From a virus: a stretch of 22,537 nucleotides of DNA. The stretch's first letter is position 1, and the number at the start of each line of letters is the position of its first letter. This document shows positions 8,623 through 22,537 of this stretch, in pieces. The position numbers and the translations under genes were made by a program. The stretch covers positions 1 to 22,537 of the IMG/VR virus record IMGVR_UViG_3300035665_000256. One strand, 5' to 3'. Below the pieces are notes generated by a model. That model saw only the letters and a list, made by a program, of their open reading frames with translations. It ran no database searches and was not told the origin of the DNA.

Positions 8623-9849
8623 TCAAATGAAGTTCTTATGCCGTGGCTCCGGCCCCACTGGCTGCGGGTCAGCCCCTTTCCAGATAGCGTCCAAGGCGCG
8701 GTTCTGCGTGCCGAACACGCATTTCTGGCAATGCACCATCGGGTCGATCAGCGAACGCACAGGCTGCTCGTAGAGTTCATGAATGGTGTCCCAGCGTCCG
8801 ATGACGTAGGCGCTGCCGCCCTGTGAACGGTTGGCTTGATCCAAAAGGGTTACGCTATCGCAGGGTGTCACGTCGCCGGAAGGCCATAACACGGGATGTG
8901 AATAACCAAGCAGACAACAGGTGTGGGGGGCTGGCGGCTTGTACTGCACCATGATGCGAGGGTCCACTTCCAACGCCAGTTGTTCCAACTCGATGCACCG
9001 TTCCGGGATCTTCTGAATCTCGTAGCAGTTCGGCAGCGCACGGATGTAGGTGAACGGTTTGGTGGAAAGCAACTCCTTCAATTTCTGCTTTATGAACGGG
9101 AGGCGGTCCTTGCCATAGGTCACGCGCTCCGCTTCATCGCCTGCGAGCAAAGGAGTTTGAAGGTCTTCGGGACGACTGACTTTTCCGTGCCGGTCGAGCG
9201 GATCTTTGTAGGAGTCGTGATACACCCAGCTTCCGCCAAGAGCAGTCAGTTCTGGATTGATGTCAGGCACTTCCACTTCCTCACCATGGTCCCACGCGCT
9301 GAGAGAGATGCGAATCCATGTCAACTTATCCAAGGTTTCAGGCCGAACGGTTCTCCAAGAGGTCCGGCCATCGGGATACTGCACCATGTTCTTGAGGCCG
9401 TTGCTGATCAGCCCGATTTGCAGACCTTTGCCATGCAGCGTGTCCACCAAGTCGTCGAAATCGTAGCCCTTTTCGCGGTCCTTCCACAATATGGGGTTCC
9501 CTCCCCCGCTCAGAATAACGGCTTTCAAACCCAATGGAATGAGCTGATCCACATATGTTTCCACCTGATGCAATGTCAGGGCGGCGTTGCCTCGGTTGGC
9601 AGTAGAACAGAAAGAACACTTGTGCTGGCAGGCGTCTCCCACAAAAATCCCGCTCACCTTGGGCACTCCTTTGCCTTGATGCAGCCCCTCGATGATGTCG
9701 CGGTGCCAAGGGATTTTGGATGAGGTGCTGGTGAACTCGTTGAGCAAATCCTTCATGGACTCAGGAGTCTCGTGATTACACGTCTCTGAGTCGCCGGGGA
9801 TGGTGTCCAGTTCGGGCTTGTCGGCGATGGCGGAAGGGAGGGTGTTCAT
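8623..9849 (-). CDS. Radical SAM protein with SPASM-like C-terminal cysteines
   Basis: A 408-aa protein. C74-x3-C78-x2-C81 (ACQHKCSFC) is the radical SAM 4Fe-4S motif, and SGGGNP at about 114-119 corresponds to the SAM-binding GGE motif. The C-terminus has more cysteines (C311, C312, C330 in GDVTPCDS, C374-x2-C377), arranged like SPASM or twitch domains that bind auxiliary Fe-S clusters. Such proteins perform radical chemistry on peptides, sugars or small molecules. The ATG at 9849 overlaps the upstream methyltransferase stop by 4 nt; a GTG 18 nt upstream is less likely. The position among glycosyltransferases and methyltransferases suggests modification of the same product. The substrate is unknown. 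Confidence 0.88.
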   Translation of the reverse strand: MNTLPSAIADKPELDTIPGDSETCNHETPESMKDLLNEFTSTSSKIPWHRDIIEGLHQGKGVPKVSGIFVGDACQHKCSFCSTANRGNAALTLHQVETYVDQLIPLGLKAVILSGGGNPILWKDREKGYDFDDLVDTLHGKGLQIGLISNGLKNMVQYPDGRTSWRTVRPETLDKLTWIRISLSAWDHGEEVEVPDINPELTALGGSWVYHDSYKDPLDRHGKVSRPEDLQTPLLAGDEAERVTYGKDRLPFIKQKLKELLSTKPFTYIRALPNCYEIQKIPERCIELEQLALEVDPRIMVQYKPPAPHTCCLLGYSHPVLWPSGDVTPCDSVTLLDQANRSQGGSAYVIGRWDTIHELYEQPVRSLIDPMVHCQKCVFGTQNRALDAIWKGADPQPVGPEPRHKNFI

Positions 9850-10427
9850 AGAGGTTTCCGTGCCCACATCTCCAACGAGAAGATACGGCGGTTAAGTTTT
9901 GGCACGATCTCGGCAACCGTGGGCGAGTGGTTCTCGTCTGAGTTGACAAGGAGATGGACGTGGTGTGAGGGGAAACCTGCGCGGACAAAATGTGCCCACA
10001 TGGAATCCTCTGTGAAGATTTGAGCGTGCTGGTCAAACCACAAAGCTGCCTCGAACCACGTTGGGATAGGGTTCGGTGGATCTGTCACCTCGAACAAACG
10101 AGGCCAGTTCTCGTTGCGGTCCTCGTCGTGGACAGAACGGAAGTAGGTGGCGTCTGGCACGCTCACCAGTATCACGCCACCAGGGTTGAGCACTCGCAGC
10201 ACTTCCTTCATCACCTTGACCGCTTCACGGCAGTCCATGTGCTCCAGAACATGGCTGCACAAACAGCCGTCAAACGAGTTGTCGGGAAAAGGGAGTGGCT
10301 GGCGCAGATCGTGCCGGACGAAGTTCGGCTCGTTGATCTCATGACCACCGCCCTCCCAGTTGTCGAGGTTGACCCAGATGTTGTCGATGGGTCTTGTTGA
10401 CCCGGCTCCGAGGTTGAGAATTTTCAT
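9846..10427 (-). CDS. Class I SAM-dependent methyltransferase (Methyltransf_11 type)
   Basis: A 193-aa Rossmann-type methyltransferase. Motif I is LNLGAGST (residues 4-11), right at the N-terminus. The acidic ribose-binding position follows in strand 2 (VNLDNW), FPDNSFDGCLCSHVLEHM is the motif IV/post-motif region typical of Methyltransf_11, and LNPGGVILVSVPD is the beta5 region. The start overlaps the upstream gene's stop (ATGA at 10424-10427). The acceptor may be a sugar, lipid or small molecule; no DNA methyltransferase target-recognition domain or NPPY-type motif is present. It is one of three methyltransferase-fold proteins in the cassette. Confidence 0.87.
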   Translation of the reverse strand: MKILNLGAGSTRPIDNIWVNLDNWEGGGHEINEPNFVRHDLRQPLPFPDNSFDGCLCSHVLEHMDCREAVKVMKEVLRVLNPGGVILVSVPDATYFRSVHDEDRNENWPRLFEVTDPPNPIPTWFEAALWFDQHAQIFTEDSMWAHFVRAGFPSHHVHLLVNSDENHSPTVAEIVPKLNRRIFSLEMWARKPL

Positions 10428-11161
10428 ACTTTCAAGTCGTGTTCAGTTTGGTCGAGGATGCTGGAATAGTCCAGTCCGGTGATGGCGCTGGCCTCGTCAA
10501 AGTGGGCCTTCTGCTGCTCCAGGGTGAGCGGGCGCAGGTCAACGCCGGGGTTGGGGTAGGGCAGTTCTTGGGAGAACGTGATCAACCGGCGCGACTGTTT
10601 CTTGACGAAGAGGGTCAGCCCGTTGTCGGAGTGGAGGTCGAGTTGCTGCCAATCTGTAAGCCCTCCCAACCTGTCGGTCAGTCCGTCCACCAACATGCGG
10701 GGACCAACGCAGTTCTCCACGTCATCGAAGGCTATAAAGGAAGCGCCTCGGTTGATCGCCGTCTTCATCTCGAACAGCGCGGCCTCGTGGCTGTGCCAAG
10801 CGTCGATGTAGATAAAATCCACACGCTCCGGCCAGATGCTCAAGTTCTTGGTGTCACCGTCATGGAACTCCACCCAATCGCGGACACCGAGATGAGTCAG
10901 GTTCTCCTCGGCGTGTTGCTTCGGCGTCTTACCTTCAAGGATGTGTACGTGCTCCAATAACGACCAGTTGTCGAGGCAGTGGACGCGGCCTAGGTTGTTC
11001 TCTTGGCAGGCTTTCGCCATCCATGCGGCAGACAAGGCCCGGTAAGTGCCACAATCGACGATATGCTGCGGCTTCAGACAGCGGGTGAATCCGTGCAGCA
11101 GGCGCGGGCTGTCGTAATTCCAAGAGGCGTAAACCTTGTTGATTTCTTCGTAAAAACTCAT
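10424..11161 (-). CDS. Class I methyltransferase-fold protein (Methyltransf_24-like)
   Basis: A 245-aa protein from the ATG at 11161, which overlaps the upstream stop by ATGA; an in-frame ATG 39 nt upstream is less likely. IVDCGTYRALSAAWMA (34-49) is motif I, VHCLDNW supplies the acidic end of strand 2, and FIYIDAWHSHEA (116-127) resembles the IDxxHxxE motif of Methyltransf_24 proteins, in which the Asp/His region helps bind metal or the acceptor in O-methyltransferase relatives. The following FIAFDD strand also fits this family. It probably methylates a sugar or another cassette intermediate. The C-terminal 60 residues are not assigned. Confidence 0.8.
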   Translation of the reverse strand: MSFYEEINKVYASWNYDSPRLLHGFTRCLKPQHIVDCGTYRALSAAWMAKACQENNLGRVHCLDNWSLLEHVHILEGKTPKQHAEENLTHLGVRDWVEFHDGDTKNLSIWPERVDFIYIDAWHSHEAALFEMKTAINRGASFIAFDDVENCVGPRMLVDGLTDRLGGLTDWQQLDLHSDNGLTLFVKKQSRRLITFSQELPYPNPGVDLRPLTLEQQKAHFDEASAITGLDYSSILDQTEHDLKV

Positions 11162-11937
11162 GCTTTTGGTTGGTGTGAAATCCACATGTCTTTGGTGCAT
11201 CCCGGCATCAACGCCTCGTAGGTGGCGATGTCCTCGGTGTTCTGTTCAGGCTCCATGGCTCGATAGTGGTGCGAGTAGTGGTCGATGTAGAGCGACCCGT
11301 CAGTCACCCGGATAAACTTTGGCTCGGCCCATGTTGGCGTCCATATCAGGCGCTCGTGCATCTTCACCTCCGGGTCGTAGCACAGGAAGGGGGTGTTCTT
11401 CAATAGCCTGAGTTGCCAGTCGTGCTCCGCGTGCCAGTTCTGGCAGGGGCGGTCCCACTCACCGGGAGCACCGAACCAGTGACGGCGGGACACGCAGATG
11501 GCGAGAGCTTGCTCTGCCTCGGCATGCCCGATTAAATGCCGCAGCTTCTCACGCTGGTTGACGTTGCCGCCAGCACCCGTTTGGTTGGAGACGTGCAGAT
11601 CGGGGGTGAGTGTCTCGGGGAACTTGCCGGTGCCAGTGACGCCGAGGATGGGGGCAAGCGGCCACACCCGTTCATCCGCGTCCAAGATCATCACCCATTC
11701 GCAGGACGAATACCCGATGCAGCGGGTTCGTAATGCTCCGAAGCCCTGGCTCAGGGTATCGTGGATGAGCTTGTGACCGGACGCCTCTGCAATGGCAATC
11801 GTCTCAGGGTCAGCCGGGGTGCCGTCCATGGGAGAGGATACGAGCACGATCTCGTCGAACATTCGCTCGGCGGTTTCGATAAAGCCGGGCAGAGCATGGC
11901 GCTCGTTGTGGAAATGACAGACTGCGGAGATTCTCAT
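11158..11937 (-). CDS. Family 2-like glycosyltransferase
   Basis: A 259-aa protein with a GT-A start (MRISAVCHFHNERHALPGFI) where NE follows the first strand, and WVMILDADERV at residues 81-91, in which DAD matches the DxD metal/nucleotide-sugar motif of GT2 enzymes. HEHDW-type acidic/aromatic residues (NWHAEHDWQLRLLKN) about 165-180 fit the acceptor-side region with the conserved R-L-K pattern. No membrane helix is seen, so it is not a polysaccharide synthase. It overlaps both neighbours by 4 nt. It is the third glycosyltransferase-like gene of the cassette. Sugar and acceptor are unknown. Confidence 0.85.
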   Translation of the reverse strand: MRISAVCHFHNERHALPGFIETAERMFDEIVLVSSPMDGTPADPETIAIAEASGHKLIHDTLSQGFGALRTRCIGYSSCEWVMILDADERVWPLAPILGVTGTGKFPETLTPDLHVSNQTGAGGNVNQREKLRHLIGHAEAEQALAICVSRRHWFGAPGEWDRPCQNWHAEHDWQLRLLKNTPFLCYDPEVKMHERLIWTPTWAEPKFIRVTDGSLYIDHYSHHYRAMEPEQNTEDIATYEALMPGCTKDMWISHQPKA

Positions 11938-12569
11938 ACTCGCGTAAATTGGATAAACCCGCAGGACTTCGGCACCTCAGAGGAGGCAGGTTTGAGTCCG
12001 GGGTAGTGCCATGAACCAGTGATGCACCCTTCGTCTAAGGAGACACTCTCCCTGAACAAATCCATCCACATGTCCAGCGGCCATGCGTTGCAGTGTGACG
12101 GGTCGGAGTTGTCCTCGTCGCGGAGGTAGGGACCGTCGGGATGGTGAGTCAGCGGGACGATGGCGAGTAGGTGCTTCCGGGTGGAGGCGAGCAGTTGTTT
12201 GAGCAGAGGACGAAGTTGATCGAGCAGGATGTGCTCTGCCACATCCTTCAGGATGATGTGATCAAACCGTTCATCGGGCATCACGTTGGACACATAACCC
12301 TTCACCCCTTCGTCGCAGTTCTGGATGGCCCACTCGCTGCTGTCGTATCCGAAAGCGTTCACCCCGCGCATGCGTAACGCCTTGACGAGGTAGCCTCGGG
12401 CGCACCCAAAATCGAGAACCGTGTCGCCGTCCTTAATGTGCAGGACGCGCTTGAGCCAGTCCGCCATGGGGAGCGTGAGATCGGGCTTCCAACTGTAATC
12501 GACGTAGTTTGATTTGCCGGATGTCGGGCCGGTCAGGTAGTACTCGGCGTCGTAAAATTCAGATTCCAT
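11934..12569 (-). CDS. Class I SAM-dependent methyltransferase (Methyltransf_23-like)
   Basis: A 211-aa protein from the ATG at 12569. VLDFGCARGYL (51-61) is motif I, FGYDSSEWA the acidic strand-2 region, and FDHIILKDVAEHIL (102-115) motif IV with the AEHI signature of SAM-dependent methyltransferases acting on small molecules or glycans. An in-frame TTG at 12608 overlaps the terminase stop as TTGA and would add 13 residues (MTFTLSNTKNAAP). The ATG is preceded by an A/C-rich leader like other starts here, so I choose it with modest confidence. It is the first gene of the cassette downstream of the terminase, so it should share its transcript. Confidence 0.83.
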   Translation of the reverse strand: MESEFYDAEYYLTGPTSGKSNYVDYSWKPDLTLPMADWLKRVLHIKDGDTVLDFGCARGYLVKALRMRGVNAFGYDSSEWAIQNCDEGVKGYVSNVMPDERFDHIILKDVAEHILLDQLRPLLKQLLASTRKHLLAIVPLTHHPDGPYLRDEDNSDPSHCNAWPLDMWMDLFRESVSLDEGCITGSWHYPGLKPASSEVPKSCGFIQFTRV

Positions 12570-12604
12570 GGGTGCGGCGTTCTTCGTGTTTGATAGGGTG
12601 AATG

Positions 12605-14569
12605 TCAATGGAAACTTTGATCAGCCCAGCCCTGATTGGCGCTGAGTGAGGCGGTGATCAGGTCCGAGTATTTGCCCCGTCCCTTCGTGTCGGTCACGGC
12701 TGCCACCAGATGAGCGTGACGGACGGACATGGGGTTCTTGGGCGCGTTCGACGGCAACGCGGTTCGGCGGGCAGCCTTGACCAGCGAAGTCAGCCCATGA
12801 CGGCGACGGGCGATCTCGATGCAGCCGAAGAAGGCGTCGGCGCGGTCGGGGCTTCTGCCGTTGGTCCGCTGCTTCATCACCTTCTTGGACTCCACCTCAA
12901 CTTTCTCCCGGTCCACGAGCTTGTACATTCTCGCACACATCTGGATGCACGTCTCTGGGTCGAGGCCACGAATCTGTCCGGCCTTGATGAAGTCTTTGCC
13001 GACGTACCACAGCTCGGACACCCGGTTGGCGAACCTGTCCTTGCCGGTGCGCGAGTTGGTGGTGCCCACGGTCTTGTCTGACGGCGCTCCCGCGAAGCTC
13101 ACCATCTGGAAGCCCCGGCCCATCTTGATCGCCATGAGCGAGGCGAACGGATCACCGGCCCCTGTGGAGTCGGAGCCTCGGTCTTCCACTTTGACGCCGC
13201 GCTTGGCGCACTCGGCATCGTAGAGATTCACCAACTGCTGATTGCGGTCCACCGTCTTGTTACTGGCATCGACCAAGGCCATGAGGTTGATCGTCTCAAC
13301 CAGTTCAATACCTTTGACGGTGCGCTGGTGGATGGCTGAGTAGTAGTCGCCCACCCGACAAAAACAGGCGTCCGCTTCGTCTCCACCATGGCTGAAGGCC
13401 GGGTCGAGGAAAGCAATTGGGGTGGGCGGGGTGAGCCATGTGCTGACTCTGTGCTGGCTGCCGCTGCTGGTGATCTCGACTTCCGTGTAGATGGCATTGG
13501 CGTCTCCATCGGGGGAGAGGAAGCCGCGCACCATGCGGTAGTACTCCGGCGACTTCGGGCCAAGGTCTCGACGCAGATCCGTGACGGTGCGCAGGCTGAG
13601 AATGCCCTTCCACACCTCCCGACCGGCGAGCACGTTGGGAGACTTCTCCCCGTCAAATCGAATGCAGTAGCCACGTTTGGTCTTCCACCCGTCGAAGGTT
13701 TCGTCGATGGAGTTCCACCCTTCCTCCGGCTCCATGAACACGCCGAGCGGGTCAAACGGCGAAGTGGGGTTGCCAATGCCGATGAACTGCAAGTACTCAT
13801 TGGACTGCAAGTTGGTGATGGCGGTGTTGTAAAGACTGTGGGTGAGCAACGGCAGTTCGTCCGCGATGAAGATCACACAACGGTTCTTGAAACCGATCTT
13901 GGTCGAGGCGTCCTTGTCCTGTCCCTTGCCGCCAGCAACGAGAGTGATGCCTGCGAGCTGGTTCTGCTTGCCATCAGAATTGACGCGCACGATCTTGCCG
14001 AGGGAGGACACCAGCTTGGCCTGCATGTACTGCTCGCCGCCGAAGAACCGGCAAATCTCCGCCCAGTAGCCCTCGACGACGCCCCAGATACGACCGCGAG
14101 ACTCGTCCAACGATGTCGAGGTAATGAACACCTTCACATACTCAGGAGATGCCACAGGGCAGTCGGGAAAACGTGCGCCGATGAGGAAGCGCCCAATGGC
14201 GTAGAGGGCGAAAAATTCAGACTTGGAGCAACTGGCGTGCCCCGCGACGGCGAGGAAGTTGTTGGAGTAGGCTTCTTCCAACATCCGCATGGCGTACGGG
14301 TTCCACTCGAAGCGGTAGCGGGGGTTGGTCTCGGGACGATCCAGCATCAACGAGATGAACCTGCGGAAGTGCCACGTCCACGGGTTGAGCTGGCTGCCCG
14401 GCAGATTAACGAAATGCTCGTAGTTGCCCAAGATAAACTTTTCGAGATCCACCTCCTGCAACAGCTCATACCCGGCGCTCGTCTTGGGCACGCCGGGGAG
14501 ACGTTTCCACCACCGCCCATAGCGAGCGATGTGGGTGCGTTCCATCTGCTGGGGAGAGGGTTGGGGCAT
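12605..14569 (-). CDS. terL: Phage terminase large subunit (TerL)
   Basis: A 654-aa protein. The N-terminal ATPase has a Walker A-like loop GHASCSKS (110-117), which keeps the terminal KS but has an atypical GHASCS lead-in, and a Walker B CVIFIADE (231-238) with the catalytic Glu. The C-terminal RNase H-like nuclease shows FLDPAFSHGGDEAD (388-400), then VEDRGSDSTGAGD, and SPDRADAFF near the end, supplying acidic metal ligands. The protein cuts concatemeric DNA and drives it into the procapsid. I start at the ATG at 14569, which overlaps the upstream TGA by one base (TGATG); an in-frame ATG at 14605 is less likely. No small terminase subunit is recognised beside it. Confidence 0.9.
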   Translation of the reverse strand: MPQPSPQQMERTHIARYGRWWKRLPGVPKTSAGYELLQEVDLEKFILGNYEHFVNLPGSQLNPWTWHFRRFISLMLDRPETNPRYRFEWNPYAMRMLEEAYSNNFLAVAGHASCSKSEFFALYAIGRFLIGARFPDCPVASPEYVKVFITSTSLDESRGRIWGVVEGYWAEICRFFGGEQYMQAKLVSSLGKIVRVNSDGKQNQLAGITLVAGGKGQDKDASTKIGFKNRCVIFIADELPLLTHSLYNTAITNLQSNEYLQFIGIGNPTSPFDPLGVFMEPEEGWNSIDETFDGWKTKRGYCIRFDGEKSPNVLAGREVWKGILSLRTVTDLRRDLGPKSPEYYRMVRGFLSPDGDANAIYTEVEITSSGSQHRVSTWLTPPTPIAFLDPAFSHGGDEADACFCRVGDYYSAIHQRTVKGIELVETINLMALVDASNKTVDRNQQLVNLYDAECAKRGVKVEDRGSDSTGAGDPFASLMAIKMGRGFQMVSFAGAPSDKTVGTTNSRTGKDRFANRVSELWYVGKDFIKAGQIRGLDPETCIQMCARMYKLVDREKVEVESKKVMKQRTNGRSPDRADAFFGCIEIARRRHGLTSLVKAARRTALPSNAPKNPMSVRHAHLVAAVTDTKGRGKYSDLITASLSANQGWADQSFH

Positions 14570-17870: not shown

Positions 17871-19919
17871 TTACTTGGTGTAGTAGGGTTGAACTTTACC
17901 ATCGGCTGCCACGGGCAGACCTTTCGTCCACTCAGGCACATTGGTCATGTGTCCAACCAATTCTTCGATGGACTGGCTTTCACGAGTGTAGGTGAGAATC
18001 TGGTCATGGATCAGCGAGCACACCTCGTAGCCCGCTGCCTCTGATTTGATGATGCCGTTGTTGAGCAGGTCAGCGCCGACCCCTTCGCAGAAATTCTGGA
18101 GCAAAAGACCTCCGTATAGACCGCATCGACCCCAGATAGTTTTGCCGCGAATCTGCCCCCAGTAGGTGAGAGATTGACGAGTTTTGATCTTGCCGCTTTC
18201 CCACGTCTCAATCTCTCCGGTCTTCTTGTTCCGACTGACGGTCTCCTCAATTTTGGGATCGCGGTAGGCGAGACGACGACCTGACGGCAGTTTGGCGAAC
18301 AGATACTTGGTTCCCGCCGTTACCGCGCAAAAGAACTCGACTTTGCCCGCCTGATGGCGGGAACCAAAATTACTCACGGCGGCTTTGGCCGCACGATCAT
18401 AGGCGTGCCAGACTTTGACGATGTTCGGATTAGCTTCTCGCCATTGCTCGACCACCTCCTCCAACTCTTCCTCCTTCACCCCCATGTCGAGAGCACCCAT
18501 GTCTTTGAGAGCTTCCACTCCGCCCTGGTATTGAAGTGCCAAACTTGCGACCTTACCCTTCTGTCGGTCTGGGTGATGTTTGCCGTGCTCTTTGGCGTAG
18601 TCTAGCATCTCCTGCAAAGGCATCCCAGACATGCGGCATGCGGTCGCCTCGTAAATCTTGCCGTGAGTGCGGAACACTTCAAGCGTCCACTCCTCGTTCG
18701 CCAACCATGCCGCGATACGGGCTTCGATACTGCTGAAGTCCACGTCGAAGATCGGCCCAGCTTCGTCGTGAATGAAGTGACGGATGCACGAGCCGATGAC
18801 CTCCAGCAGAGGTCCGTAGAATATTTCGATGTGTGCCTCGCTCGCTCCCGCCATGATGTCGGCGTAGGCGGCGTCGGTGTTTTTGATCGTGGGGCGTTTG
18901 AAGTTCTGCGGCTGAACCAGTCTGCCGGATGCACGACCCGGACCTGCGCCGTAGAATTGAATGGTGCCGCGCACCCGGCTGTCAGCACACGCACACTCGA
19001 TCATTGCTTTCACCTTCTTGATGCTGGCAAAGCTGAGAGACTTTTTGATGGTGAGCACGCGACCAACCGTCGTGGTGGGGTCAAAGGCTTCATCCTCCAA
19101 CTGTTCGTCCAGTGTGTCGGCGCGGAGGTTGTCGCCCTCATACCCGTGCTCCTTGAGCCACTTCAACAGCACGTCACGTTGGGTCGGGTTGAAGCCGGTG
19201 AGTTCACGGAACTCCTCGGTCATGCGAGCCTCGTTGGCTTCGATCAGCGTTTGAGCGTGACGCAGGGCGGGCAGGTTGACCGGCAGACCACGGGAGTTGA
19301 TGGCGAGGTCAGCCTGGAACGCTGCCAGCGTGTTGCCGGTCAGCTCGAAGTGCTTGAGAGTTTTGTGGATTCCCTGCTCCGCACGAACGTCTTGGATACA
19401 GTAATTGCAGAATGCAATAAAGTCGTCCTGTCGGTCAATGGGTTGAATGAACTTGCCGGAGGCTTTCTGCGGGATGGAGAACTTGCGGATCAGTGCTTTG
19501 CCTTTGCTGTCCTTCTGTTGCAGCAAGCCCAGCGTCTCGGCAGCTTTCTCCAGGGATGGCGGGATGGCAGCGCGGCGGGACATGGCGGCGGTGCAGCGCC
19601 AGCGGCGGTAGTCGATCTTGAACCAACGGTTGTTCGGGCAGTGGTTGGTGATCGCCTGCTCGAAGTAGGCGTTATGCGCGTACACCGGAGCATCGTTGCG
19701 GTTCATCTCGGCAATCAGTTCGTCCACCCCTGGCGACGACCGGCACACGGACATGTCGTCGAACTCGAACTTGGGATTCACCCACAGCAGCGGACCCTCG
19801 CCGTCGCGAGCTATGGCTGCGCACAGGATCTCAGTGGACGGGTCTTCCGCGTACCGAAAAGCGCCTGTGCGCTTGATGTCCGCCGTTGAGCGTGTCTCGA
19901 AATCCAGATGAAAATTCAT
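17871..19919 (-). CDS. Family A DNA polymerase with 3'-5' exonuclease domain
   Basis: A 682-aa protein, comparable in length to T7-type phage polymerases. Exonuclease: LDFET (D6, E8), AHNAYFEQ (81-88) and YCIQDVRAE (173-181, D177). No 5'-3' exonuclease domain. Polymerase motif A is DFSSIEAR (394-401; D394, E399). Motif B is RQKGKVASLALQY (452-464): R452, K456 and Y464 align with E. coli Pol I R754, K758 and Y766, which puts L460 at position 762. Motif C is LIHDQ (636-640), with catalytic D639 but Gln where HDE is usual. It should be the replicative polymerase. The ATG at 19919 has no SD and follows a 107-nt leader after the tRNA-like gene. Confidence 0.93.
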   Translation of the reverse strand: MNFHLDFETRSTADIKRTGAFRYAEDPSTEILCAAIARDGEGPLLWVNPKFEFDDMSVCRSSPGVDELIAEMNRNDAPVYAHNAYFEQAITNHCPNNRWFKIDYRRWRCTAAMSRRAAIPPSLEKAAETLGLLQQKDSKGKALIRKFSIPQKASGKFIQPIDRQDDFIAFCNYCIQDVRAEQGIHKTLKHFELTGNTLAAFQADLAINSRGLPVNLPALRHAQTLIEANEARMTEEFRELTGFNPTQRDVLLKWLKEHGYEGDNLRADTLDEQLEDEAFDPTTTVGRVLTIKKSLSFASIKKVKAMIECACADSRVRGTIQFYGAGPGRASGRLVQPQNFKRPTIKNTDAAYADIMAGASEAHIEIFYGPLLEVIGSCIRHFIHDEAGPIFDVDFSSIEARIAAWLANEEWTLEVFRTHGKIYEATACRMSGMPLQEMLDYAKEHGKHHPDRQKGKVASLALQYQGGVEALKDMGALDMGVKEEELEEVVEQWREANPNIVKVWHAYDRAAKAAVSNFGSRHQAGKVEFFCAVTAGTKYLFAKLPSGRRLAYRDPKIEETVSRNKKTGEIETWESGKIKTRQSLTYWGQIRGKTIWGRCGLYGGLLLQNFCEGVGADLLNNGIIKSEAAGYEVCSLIHDQILTYTRESQSIEELVGHMTNVPEWTKGLPVAADGKVQPYYTK

Positions 19920-20026
19920 AGTGCGGAAAAAGGTGCCAGCGCCAAGGATACCAAGCAGGCTGGCGGCTACTCCAATAGAAGGGTAAAGAGAAAACCCTCG
20001 GTTGCGACTCTCTTGGCTTATCGGAT

Positions 20027-20140
20027 TGGTGACTCAAGTAGGACTCGAACCTACGGTCTAGGGTTTTACGGATTGCTCCGCGTGTATGAGCCTAGCTTGG
20101 AATGCACTCCAATGCGTGCCGCCTTCCACGCTTTTGAGTC
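20027..20140 (-). tRNA. Atypical tRNA-like gene with 42-nt variable region and encoded CCA
   Basis: Read on the minus strand from 20140: acceptor GACTCAA (20140-20134) pairs over all 7 bp with TTGAGTC (20037-20031), followed by discriminator A and encoded CCA (20029-20027). The T arm is canonical: GTAGG, loop TTCGAGT, CCTAC (20054-20038). A 5-bp D-like arm GCGTG/CACGC (20131-20114) has a GG-containing 8-nt loop. The next hairpin, TTGGA/TCCAA (20112-20097), has only a 6-nt loop, GTGCAT. A 42-nt region (20096-20055) follows with stem CTAGG/CCTAG and inner hairpin CGGA-GCAA-TCCG. If the first hairpin is the anticodon arm, GCA could be the anticodon, but positions 8-9 are AA and the loop is short. 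Alternatively CTCATA inside the large arm mimics a CAT anticodon loop with an insertion. Isotype cannot be assigned. Confidence 0.6.
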
Positions 20141-20147
20141 GAATTGG

Positions 20148-20390
20148 TCAGCAACCCCACCGTTTACGCGCAGCCTTGCCGCGTTCGCCGGTCCACCCGC
20201 TGGAGCGAGCGCAGAAGCTAGCCTTTCGGCCTTTGTCCGCGTCGGTCTTGGGGCTTGGTGCTGGCGGCTTCAGGTTGGAGCCGGTAGCCGCGTTGTATTT
20301 TGCACGACCCTTGGCGGTGAGTCCTGCACCTTTGGACACAGGCAGCTTTTCGCCTCGTCCGACACTGAGATTTGGTTTCTTGTCTGGCAT
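20148..20390 (-). CDS. DUF6321-type small phage protein
   Basis: An 80-aa basic protein from the ATG at 20390. GLTAKGRAKYNAATGSNLKP (23-42), PPAPSPKTDADKGRKASFCA (42-61) and the end KAARKRWGC match a small conserved phage family that I recall as DUF6321, with invariant-looking ATGSNLKPPAP, RxSFCAR and terminal KxRxxWxC patterns. The function is not known; the high Lys/Arg content suggests nucleic-acid or virion contact. The stop lies 7 nt before the first base of the tRNA-like gene, so the two probably share a transcript. The start has an A/C-rich leader and no SD. A longer in-frame reading to 21062 overlaps the DUF2815 gene and is not used. Confidence 0.83.
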   Translation of the reverse strand: MPDKKPNLSVGRGEKLPVSKGAGLTAKGRAKYNAATGSNLKPPAPSPKTDADKGRKASFCARSSGWTGERGKAARKRWGC

Positions 20391-20410
20391 GATGTTTGGG
20401 TGTTGGCGAG

Positions 20411-20521
20411 CTACCACATTGTCAGCAGGTTGCTCAGTCTCCGTTCGGAAGGTGGAGTCTTTAGTTCTTGGATTGGGTACCAAGCGATCAAGACGATATA
20501 GCCACCTCCAAAATTCTTCAC
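20411..20521 (-). CDS. Possible 36-aa peptide coupled to the DUF2815 gene
   Basis: A GTG at 20521 overlaps the DUF2815 stop as GTGA, the same arrangement used by the helicase start in this window. The ORF encodes KNFGGGYIVLIAWYPIQEL and a polar C-terminus and ends at TAG 20411-20413, about 20 nt before the DUF6321 ATG. It fills the 127-nt gap between those genes. The short hydrophobic segment YIVLIAW could be a membrane contact. No family is recognised, and chance coding is possible. Confidence 0.35.
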   Translation of the reverse strand: MKNFGGGYIVLIAWYPIQELKTPPSERRLSNLLTMW

Positions 20522-21150
20522 ATGTCGTCGATGCTAAGATCGGCGGCAGGTTTCTTCGCAGCCGGTTTGGTGGCTGGCGCGGGTGCGCTCTCGGACTCGT
20601 CGTCCAGATCAATACCGGCAAACTCGGACTCGGCGTCCACCGGGGCAGCGCCGAAGGGTTCGCCGTCAGCATGGAAGATGACCACACGCAGCTCGGCGTT
20701 GATGCGCTTGCCGAACTTGTTGTCCATGGCCCAGAGGCGCACAGAAGCGTGGACGTAGCAACCAGCGTAGGGCTTGCCGTCCTCGGGAGACAGAGGCTCG
20801 AACGCCTTGTTGACCACACGAGGTTTGCGGTCCTGCTTGGAACTGGCGGAGAGGAACATGACGTTGTCGCCATAGCCGTCGCTGCCGTCGCGCTCGGAAC
20901 CGTCGCGAAGGCAAGGTTTGATACCGCCCGGAGGCTTGCCTTTCCACTTTTCTTTCTTGAGGGCGTCGATGCGGGCCTCGACAGCTTTGATGGTTTCAGC
21001 GTTGGTCTTCTTGTCGAGGATGAAGTTGGCGCTGTAAAACGGATCGCCGCCTTCGTCGCCAAAAGGGGCAGGTTTGAAGATTTTCGGGTAGGACAGTCTG
21101 ACGTTTTTCAGCAGAACGATGTTCGGATCGGCGGTGTTGGCTTGGCTCAT
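20518..21150 (-). CDS. DUF2815 phage protein, probable ssDNA-binding protein
   Basis: A 210-aa protein. VLLKNVRLSYPKIFKPAPFG (12-31) followed by FYSANFILDKK is the DUF2815 N-terminus; VMFLSASSKQDRKPRVV, PYAGCYVHASVRLWAMDN and KRINAELRVVIFHADGEPFG continue the beta-rich OB-fold-like body. The C-terminus is acidic then Ala/Pro/Lys-rich and ends SIDDM, resembling the acidic partner-binding tips of single-stranded DNA-binding proteins. DUF2815 proteins are annotated as phage ssDNA-binding proteins and regularly sit next to DUF2800 and family A polymerase, as here. It should coat single strands at the fork. A predicted promoter and a 68-nt leader with a CA repeat lie upstream. Confidence 0.9.
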   Translation of the reverse strand: MSQANTADPNIVLLKNVRLSYPKIFKPAPFGDEGGDPFYSANFILDKKTNAETIKAVEARIDALKKEKWKGKPPGGIKPCLRDGSERDGSDGYGDNVMFLSASSKQDRKPRVVNKAFEPLSPEDGKPYAGCYVHASVRLWAMDNKFGKRINAELRVVIFHADGEPFGAAPVDAESEFAGIDLDDESESAPAPATKPAAKKPAADLSIDDM

Positions 21151-21256: not shown

Positions 21257-22456
21257 TCATTCTTCGTTCAAATCTACGCCAGCAAAGTCGCTGGTCATGT
21301 CGTTCTCGTATGTTTTGCGTGGGTCGCTCTCAGGCACGGCCATCGGGCTGCCGGGCGGCTTCACAATCAGGCGTTGCAGCTCGATCATCTTCGGACCTTT
21401 CATCTTGTCCGTCAGTTTCTCTGCCGCAGCAGGGGTGATCACGTCAGACGGCGGATAGACTTCGTCGTGTGGAAGGTTCAAACTGAGCAGCAGTTTGCCC
21501 GCTTCGGCAGGGTCGGTCCAACGGCGGTGCCCGCCACGGGAGAGCACCAGCTTGACGCCGGGCAGTTTGTTGCCGGAGATCAGCCGAGCGGTGACGAACT
21601 TCTCGATCTCACTCAACCACAGGCAAATGCTTTCCCTCGCTTTGAACGCCTTCACCACATGCTCATCAGGGAGGGTGGCTACGGCAGGCGGCTCGTTGCC
21701 CTCCAGCACTTCCAACACCTCATCCTTAAAGTCGTCCAACATGGCGTCGTTGTAGGTAGGGCAGATGGCTGCCCCACGGCACCACTTGCAAATCTTCGGC
21801 CCGCACTTGAACACGCCGGGATCGCCGCGCAGGATGGCTGCCGCTTTGGGGGTGATCCGCTCATCCGTGAATTTCTTCAACTCACCCCAGGTGGTCGTCC
21901 AGGTGACGTGATCCTGCTCCAGCCGGGGTTGGAAGATGGTCATGGTGACGGGGTAGCTGTCGGCTGGCAGTGCCTCCCAGAACCCGTCGAACATGGACTC
22001 GATCAAACTGCGGGCGTAGATCGCCATCTGGAGGTTGTTCTCACTCTCCACTGGATCGTAGCCGTACTTGTAGTCAACGAGGTGAGCGCCGTTCTTGGTG
22101 AGCGCGTGGAAGTCCACGGTGCCACGCTCGGACGGGAGGTAGTAGAGTGGCGCTCGGAACTCGGCACCCCAGCGGATGACATCACACTTTGGACCCATCA
22201 CGTCATGGCAAAACTCGGCGTACGCTTTGCCGTGCCGCAGCATTTCCTTGGTCGCCCACTTTGGCGGCTCTTTGCCGAGAAGCAGATACTCGGCAACTGT
22301 GTGGGCCTTGGTGCCTTCCATGGCTGACGGTCCCGGTCTGTCCGGTGGCAGCCGGTGCTCGTTGGCCTTGACGAAAGCCAGGGCAACCGTGCATTCGGTC
22401 CAAGTGTGAGCCTTGGACGGGGAGAGGCGAGAGTGTTCGGGAGTGGTGTCGGCCAT
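21257..22456 (-). CDS. DUF2800 family PD-(D/E)xK nuclease with predicted Fe-S cluster
   Basis: A 399-aa protein from the ATG at 22456; a TTG extension to 22489 is unlikely. The N-terminus RLSPSKAHTWTECTVALAF carries C22. Nuclease residues are E99 (GAEF), D115 (GTVDFHA), D128 and K130 (LVDYKYG) and Q143 (NLQMAIYA), the order of RecB/AddB/Cas4-type PD-(D/E)xK enzymes. C223-x2-C226-x5-C232 (CKWCRGAAIC), together with C22, matches the four-cysteine 4Fe-4S arrangement of AddB and Cas4. It probably resects DNA ends in phage recombination or replication. The C-terminal part (RLIVKPPGSPMAV, then an acidic end SDFAGVDLNEE) resembles the acidic tail of the DUF2815 protein, with shared FAGxDL. Confidence 0.9.
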   Translation of the reverse strand: MADTTPEHSRLSPSKAHTWTECTVALAFVKANEHRLPPDRPGPSAMEGTKAHTVAEYLLLGKEPPKWATKEMLRHGKAYAEFCHDVMGPKCDVIRWGAEFRAPLYYLPSERGTVDFHALTKNGAHLVDYKYGYDPVESENNLQMAIYARSLIESMFDGFWEALPADSYPVTMTIFQPRLEQDHVTWTTTWGELKKFTDERITPKAAAILRGDPGVFKCGPKICKWCRGAAICPTYNDAMLDDFKDEVLEVLEGNEPPAVATLPDEHVVKAFKARESICLWLSEIEKFVTARLISGNKLPGVKLVLSRGGHRRWTDPAEAGKLLLSLNLPHDEVYPPSDVITPAAAEKLTDKMKGPKMIELQRLIVKPPGSPMAVPESDPRKTYENDMTSDFAGVDLNEE

Positions 22457-22461
22457 GGGGA

Positions 22462-22537
22462 CTATTTGTTGAGTTCCGCGATAAGGCAAACCGCGTGGAT
22501 GGTGGCTTTTTCAGCGATGTCTTCGTAAAAATCATAT
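22462..22537 (-). CDS. C-terminal end of an unidentified upstream gene (partial)
   Basis: The minus strand is open from the right edge to a TAG at 22462-22464, giving the last 24 residues YDFYEDIAEKATIHAVCLIA plus ELNK, an amphipathic helix-like end. It stops 5 nt before the DUF2800 ATG, in keeping with the compact gene order. The alternative ATG-initiated frame at 22535 runs into the DUF2800 gene as Pro/Arg-rich shadow sequence. Too short to identify. Confidence 0.5.
   Translation of the reverse strand, partial: YDFYEDIAEKATIHAVCLIAELNK

Follow-up and report, generated by a model that had tools for sequence, protein, structure and literature searches.

A 114-nt element with tRNA-like ends and an abnormal interior in the replication operon of a phage

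The window, by which we mean the whole stretch of DNA analysed here, comprises positions 1 to 22,537 of IMG/VR virus record IMGVR_UViG_3300035665_000256 and thus spans all 22,537 nt of it. Four minus-strand genes border the locus of interest: a DUF2800/PHROG 69 exonuclease (21257–22489), an Enc34-type single-stranded DNA-binding protein (20518–21150), a small DUF6321 gene (20148–20390) and a family A DNA polymerase (17871–19919), the last identified by PHROG 17 (E 3.7e-96) with a Pfam DNA_pol_A score of 30.6 bits that lies below the cut-off of 34.3. Within this replication operon, with DUF6321 as the next gene upstream and the polymerase as the next gene downstream, sits a 114-nt unit with tRNA-like ends (20140–20027, minus strand), which begins 7 nt past the DUF6321 stop codon and ends 107 nt ahead of the polymerase start on the same strand. 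The interval 19400–20800 yielded no sigma-70-like promoter, which carries little weight as shuffled sequences average only 0.5. ARAGORN also places a tRNA-Ser(cga) at 19628–19721 on the plus strand, antisense inside the polymerase gene; this call is without Rfam support and is likely spurious. Elsewhere in the window, a run of radical SAM, methyltransferase and glycosyltransferase genes occupies 8623–12608 on the minus strand.

Read along the minus strand, the element opens with the 5′ half of an acceptor stem, GACTCAA (20134–20140), which pairs perfectly over 7 bp with TTGAGTC (20037–20031). It is followed by a D-like arm of 5 bp with an 8-nt loop (GAAGGCGG, 20114–20131), in which the GG pair is kept, and by a hairpin at the position of the anticodon arm (20097–20112), formed by 5 bp of TTGGA/TCCAA around the 6-nt loop GTGCAT. 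The place of the variable arm is taken by a large arm of 38 nt closed by CTAGG/CCTAG (20058–20095), within which an inner hairpin, GCGGA-GCAA-TCCGT, contains one G-U pair (20068–20081). On inspection of the sequence, this arm also holds CTCATA (20085–20090), which removal of a 21-nt insert would turn into a CAU anticodon loop. The T arm, GTAGG-TTCGAGT-CCTAC (5 bp, 20038–20054), leads into the 3′ half of the acceptor, TTGAGTC, and then the discriminator A (20030) and an encoded CCA (20029–20027), so that this last segment covers 20027–20037. In the predicted fold the six helices are fully paired, with one G-U pair among them, and the linkers measure 2, 1, 1 and 3 nt. An earlier reading, made from the sequence alone, had listed this tRNA-like unit with its coordinates and features, and all of these proved right when checked against the sequence and the fold. 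By eye, the element is flanked by an imperfect 10-nt direct repeat on the minus strand, with copy 1 (ACCAATTCGA) at 20139–20148 and copy 2 (ACCAATCCGA) at 20021–20030, 118 nt from copy 1; this repeat is absent from the families listed by the repeat search.

The element is not an ordinary tRNA. It shares with tRNAs a 7-bp acceptor that abuts a 5-bp T arm with a TTCRA loop. The tRNA consensus also includes the core bases U8, A14 and A21, and an anticodon loop with U33 and a purine at position 37. When the sequence is read by eye, U8, A14 and A21 are all missing from the element, two of which (U8 and A14) are named as consensus positions in a passage of PMC7609411. The G-G of the D-like loop and the T loop are retained. 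The element has no 7-nt anticodon loop with U33 and purine 37, having the 6-nt loop GTGCAT instead, and the alternative anticodon context, CTCATA, sits in a 28-nt loop. ARAGORN does not call the element at default settings. Under relaxed settings, which the sequence-only reading had proposed, it was called twice: as a tRNA-Ala(ggc) with a 33-nt intron over exactly the element's span (introns allowed, threshold 50%), and as a partial call of unknown type (threshold 30%, no introns). The Rfam tRNA model RF00005 scores it at 15.8 bits, in another register and below the family cut-off of 29.

With class II tRNAs (Ser, Leu, Tyr) the element shares acceptor and T stems of 7 and 5 bp, the order of the arms, A73 and CCA, but it departs from them in its 42-nt variable region, in the 6-nt loop at the anticodon position and in the missing core bases. 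It likewise resembles allo-tRNA and selC* tRNA-Cys in having an unusual cloverleaf and a long variable arm. In those RNAs, whose anticodons are known, the stems of the acceptor and the anticodon are longer, as described in part of PMC7609411; unlike allo-tRNA and tRNA-Sec, the element has an acceptor that does not extend beyond 7 bp (7/5) and no normal loop. The comparison with class II and allo-tRNAs had already been drawn from the sequence alone. It missed a closer kind, that of T4 rnaC and PAK_P3 sRNA2.

The tRNA-like ends of the element exceed chance. Across 60 loci (L001–L060, of which L001 is a piece of the window and L001–L007 hold the element), a 7-pair acceptor, with G-U allowed, is joined to a 5-pair T arm in ten places. 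Eight of these end in CCA, namely the seven element loci and one tRNA gene in L011, and the other two places, which lack CCA, appear to be coincidental. Support for the interior is weaker than for the ends. The whole unit with four flanking bases has a z of −2.5, and 2 of 200 shuffles were as stable. When the ends were fixed and the interior was dinucleotide-shuffled, 880 of 5000 shuffles were at least as stable, and three or more inner arms of at least 5 bp formed in 23 of 5000; the interior folded alone was matched in stability by 271 of 2000. Under arm-count and linker rules that were set after the structure had been seen, three arms occurred in 15 of 10000 shuffles when all inner arms were required to have at least 5 bp, and three such arms with every linker no longer than 3 nt occurred in none of 10000.

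Six further IMG/VR contigs of the same phage, listed under other IMG identifiers, carry the element unchanged, so that seven copies are identical. This identity says little because the region hardly varies, with only 5 differing columns between 22537 and 18500 in L007. Compensatory changes, which the sequence-only reading had proposed to look for in homologues, are not seen in the element, the copy in the window and the six others being identical and the scans having found no homologue. The relative L008, with 86% identity in the polymerase and 91.5% over 260 nt of the upstream flank, has an empty site. In place of the window's two imperfect 10-nt copies it has one similar short copy, and the order from the DUF6321 gene to the polymerase is kept without the element. 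L009 also lacks the element at the same place, and its sequence there is not alignable. None of nine records, of which seven belong to this phage and two to the nearest relatives and some may be fragments, contains a tRNA above the Rfam cut-off, and the element therefore does not look like a member of a tRNA array.

The element is found in one phage species, and six scans of viral contigs together with one scan of bacterial and archaeal genomes revealed no copy outside this phage. The sequence TTCGANTCCTACTTGAGTC matched at least 120 viral stretches; among those listed, three are the element and three have no acceptor within the contig, while 114 of the at least 120 are ordinary tRNA genes (74–75 nt spacing, loop CTTCTAA, discriminator G). 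These ordinary viral genes, which have the anticodon TCT, possess an acceptor identical to that of the element and a nearly identical T arm. Scanning with CTAGGCTCATA...CCTAG gave 91 matches, five of them the element; only three of the other 86 (L201, L208 and L244) passed a loose filter, and these were dismissed by eye. With GACTCAA...TTGAGTCACCA there were 57 matches, of which five are the element and none of the other 52 has a T stem of five pairs. Both gapped scans recovered five of the six known IMG/VR copies and so are not exhaustive. All six matches to CCTAGACCGTAGGTTCGA are the element, whereas GCGTGGAAGGCGGCACGC gave 13, comprising six copies of the element and seven sites without adjoining tRNA ends, as judged by eye. 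The 3′ end with A73 and CCA found eight places: the element six times, an ordinary tRNA-Glu (L439) and one site without a gene call (L440). Genome contigs scanned with the 25-nt 3′ end of the element yielded no match. Among GenBank phages, the whole region as query retrieved 222 records, the best 20 of which all match the end formed by the T arm and acceptor, and the interior as query retrieved two records at E 9. Plasmids gave six records with short and weak matches.

A covariance model built from the element (R1) was run on 50 records, made up of the window, 42 of the 53 polymerase relatives L008–L060, five relatives of the single-stranded DNA-binding protein (L335–L339) and two bacterial genomes; L002–L007 were left out as holders of the element. 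At E up to 1, three of the 50 records match, namely the window and the two bacterial genomes. The sequence-only reading had proposed a search of phage metagenomes with such models; here the search came back empty for all 47 other virus records, L008 and L009 included. Within the bacterial genomes, three of the four matching places are ordinary tRNAs and the fourth is weak (L429). A weak match in L009 (13 bits) has a different fold and was dropped. In six of the eight best R1 matches, the anticodon arm of an ordinary tRNA is the counterpart of the TTGGA hairpin in the alignment, which favours the large arm as a variable arm over an interrupted anticodon arm. A genome scan with the polymerase alignment recovered 76 loci that are mostly Firmicutes by title and that, being mostly 31–38% identical, do not point to a host.

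We then compared the element with two small RNAs of other phages. According to a passage of PMC4933390, the functions of the T4 band C and D RNAs have been unknown since the 1970s. The first of these, rnaC (band C or species 1 RNA; L430:909–1047, minus strand), is annotated as a small, stable RNA of 139 nt, and its fold has a T arm and a closing stem (z −4.6). BLAST with rnaC matched 714 phage records, and eight homologues taken from the 60 listed of these 714 were all used, giving nine phages with T4. In these nine T4-like phages, a 7-position acceptor lies beside a 5-bp T arm, and the acceptor contains two U-U mismatches in 9 of 9. Both partners change in a single acceptor pair, which is A-U or G-C, and in a single pair of the T stem, which is G-C, U-A or A-U. 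The covariation score was reached by none of 500 shuffles, to be read with the proviso that, for the pair counts of rnaC and sRNA2, related sequences can exceed shuffles even without structure. The tally of pairs in which both partners change (as high in 348 of 500 shuffles) and that of further pair types (381 of 500) are unremarkable. Like the element, rnaC is phage-encoded and joins a 7-position acceptor straight to a 5-bp T arm (loop TTCGAAT) around a non-tRNA interior. Unlike the element, it has the two constant acceptor mismatches, ends in TA without CCA, and is predicted to fold with two long interior arms and no D-like arm. tRNA genes are annotated on both sides of rnaC in four of the eight fetched homologues. 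The element and rnaC have no word of 8 nt in common. In T4 rnaD, by contrast with rnaC, the fold has no tRNA ends.

The second RNA, sRNA2 of phage PAK_P3, was detected by RNA-seq; part of PMC4933390 describes it as one of the late features with the strongest transcription and as having 11 nt in common with tRNA T loops. It lies between two tRNA genes. Overlapping it is a unit (L442:31308–31428; NC_022970 86307–86427) that has a fully paired acceptor of 7 bp, four of the five T-arm pairs and CCA; the annotated sRNA2 (86344–86477) is shifted from this tRNA-ended unit, and their ends do not agree. BLAST gave 162 records, and six homologues from the 30 listed of these 162 were all used (seven phages with PAK_P3). 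Three acceptor or T-stem pairs are changed on both sides in this family, with a score reached by 2 of 500 shuffles; counts of pairs changed on both sides (284 of 500 shuffles as high) and of further pair types (248 of 500) are again unremarkable. The innermost acceptor pair is broken in three of the seven phages, CCA is present in two, the outer T-stem pair is missing in five, and in YQ78 the lowest-energy fold has no tRNA-like closure. The sRNA2 unit resembles the element in its size (118 nt plus CCA), its 7-bp acceptor, its T arm (loop TTCGATT) and its non-tRNA interior, and differs from it in lacking a D-like arm and in having one branched interior arm, with other folds in relatives. The sole word common to the element and sRNA2 is the T-arm AGGTTCGA. 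A 9-nt interior word, CGTAAGCCG, is common to rnaC and sRNA2, and the element shares no interior word with either.

The element has an acceptor and a T arm around a non-tRNA interior, which places it in an informal kind, the phage small RNA with tRNA ends. It is akin to rnaC and sRNA2 in design only, its sequence giving no sign of shared ancestry, and by this analogy of design it is best placed with them. We found no literature that links rnaC and sRNA2 as tRNA-ended RNAs; older T4 papers may already note tRNA-like ends. Our preferred reading, to which we give somewhat better than an even chance, is that the element encodes a small RNA that has tRNA ends and does not decode. Backing comes from the combination of undamaged tRNA ends, CCA included, with an abnormal interior, from the fully paired helices and short linkers, from the identical copies in six further contigs and from the like design of rnaC and sRNA2, two phage RNAs reported from infected cells. 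The sequence-only suggestions of a structural variant or a tRNA mimic are those that fit best, given these intact ends and the absence of a canonical anticodon loop. We infer that the element is transcribed, trimmed, stable and functional. Should it be transcribed as part of the operon, it would be a likely substrate for host RNase P on the 5′ side, for 3′ nucleases and for the CCA enzyme, since the enzymes that process tRNA ends recognise an acceptor-T-arm stack bearing CCA. Such trimming would free a stable RNA of about 111–114 nt. Two hairpins, including a very large one, stand in for the anticodon half, so this RNA should not decode normally, and because it is without a decoding loop it would be expected to act by binding. 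Its probable use during infection would be to bind a tRNA-handling partner, for which a processing enzyme, EF-Tu, an anticodon-ignoring synthetase and a tRNA-cutting defence enzyme are candidates. More speculatively, a mimic of tRNA that bears a giant variable arm might serve to bait a tRNA-targeting defence.

The same ends could be those of an acquired tRNA gene whose middle was recently scrambled by insertions or recombination, leaving a functionless remnant. The identity of the acceptor and near-identity of the T arm with the TCT tRNA genes (114 of the at least 120 listed matches) point this way, as do the confinement to one phage species, the lack of the element in L008 and L009 and of any model match in the 47 other virus records, and an interior no more stable than its shuffles. 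The flanking direct repeat would also suit a remnant, as recombination between its imperfect 10-nt copies could gain or lose one unit. Decay would, however, be expected to break stems, and here six paired helices are joined by short linkers, an arrangement seen in 0 of 10000 shuffles (by the rule set afterwards), and are unchanged in seven contigs; we regard a remnant as unlikely. Improbable, but a live rival, is the reading, also offered from the sequence alone, that the tRNA fold is a processing signal in cis, excised to part the upstream mRNA (exonuclease, single-stranded DNA-binding protein, DUF6321) from the polymerase mRNA, with the excised piece a by-product. This would agree with the placement between genes on one strand, 7 nt after one stop codon and 107 nt before the next start, and, for what little weight it has, with the lack of a sigma-70-like promoter. 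An ordinary tRNA or hairpin would nevertheless do for this role, which leaves the elaborate interior unexplained, and L008 has DUF6321 and the polymerase in the same order without the element.

Two readings that retain decoding carry still lower probability. The element may function as a class II tRNA that has a giant variable arm and the anticodon GCA in its 6-nt loop and is charged by an anticodon-blind synthetase of the leucine or serine type. The order of the arms and the linkers fit this, the model aligns the TTGGA hairpin with the anticodon arm in six of its eight best matches, and the element has A73. In E. coli tRNA-Leu, according to a section of PMC9976931, A73 is crucial, unlike the anticodon and the long arm, and A14 and A73 are leucine determinants. 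A loop of 6 nt with T instead of a purine after the anticodon, the absence of U8, A14 and A21, a variable region of 42 nt and an Rfam score of 15.8 bits, short of the cut-off of 29 and in another register, make such a tRNA quite improbable. Very unlikely, in our estimate, is a reading whose core, an insertion in the anticodon loop, had been put forward from the sequence alone: a CAU-anticodon tRNA with its loop split by a 21-nt spliced insert and an extra hairpin between the D and anticodon arms. In its favour, CTAGG-CTCATA...CCTAG looks like a normal anticodon arm except for the insert, and ARAGORN (introns, 50% threshold) does report a tRNA over exactly this span, but as tRNA-Ala(ggc) with a 33-nt intron. 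We know of no bacterial splicing route for an insert of this kind, the bacterial tRNA introns familiar to us being group I introns and far larger. No bulge-helix-bulge was seen by eye, the extra hairpin would need a second event, only 3 nt would be left for the variable region, and the codon ATA, if the tRNA were of the isoleucine type, is rare at 2.7 per 1000 in 12 window genes. We give the least credence of all to the idea that the element is a bacterial Y RNA of the YrlA type, which mimics tRNA and is bound by a Ro-like protein. tRNA mimics of this type are reported in bacteria and mycobacteriophages in part of PMC12282133, but no Y RNA family occurs among Rfam matches up to E 10, as far as the library holds such families, and a TROVE/Ro domain occurs in none of the 10 phage records searched.

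If the element is a non-decoding small RNA with tRNA ends, and if band C RNA, sRNA2 and the element have one design, a common hypothesis would cover them, in which they are trimmed and shielded as tRNAs and their middles are functional. We put forward only tentatively, as possible and on balance doubtful, that unrelated phage lineages have repeatedly kept the tRNA ends for processing and protection and swapped the middle for a custom domain, with rnaC, sRNA2 and the element as three cases of a single unrecognised design, serving as baits or inhibitors of tRNA-targeting defences or tRNA-handling enzymes. Were the middles to bait tRNA-cutting defences, phages would have a counter-defence made of RNA only, in addition to the spare tRNAs they bring.

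Other units with tRNA-like features were seen among the sequences collected. At L341:877–970 (minus strand), a simple descriptor finds an acceptor, D arm, T arm and CCA where ARAGORN and Rfam are silent, and the lowest-energy fold is tRNA-like only in part. A distant polymerase relative carries a tRNA-like gene of 88 nt plus CCA (L011:1428–1518) that scores 44.7 bits, above the Rfam cut-off, and has a 39-nt abnormal centre with no clear anticodon arm. Upstream of a polymerase gene in a Lachnospiraceae MAG contig, presumably a prophage, one tRNA-Met lies together with three tRNA-like units with abnormal centres (L414:2869–3733), and two of these three units have the acceptor CGGAACG in common.
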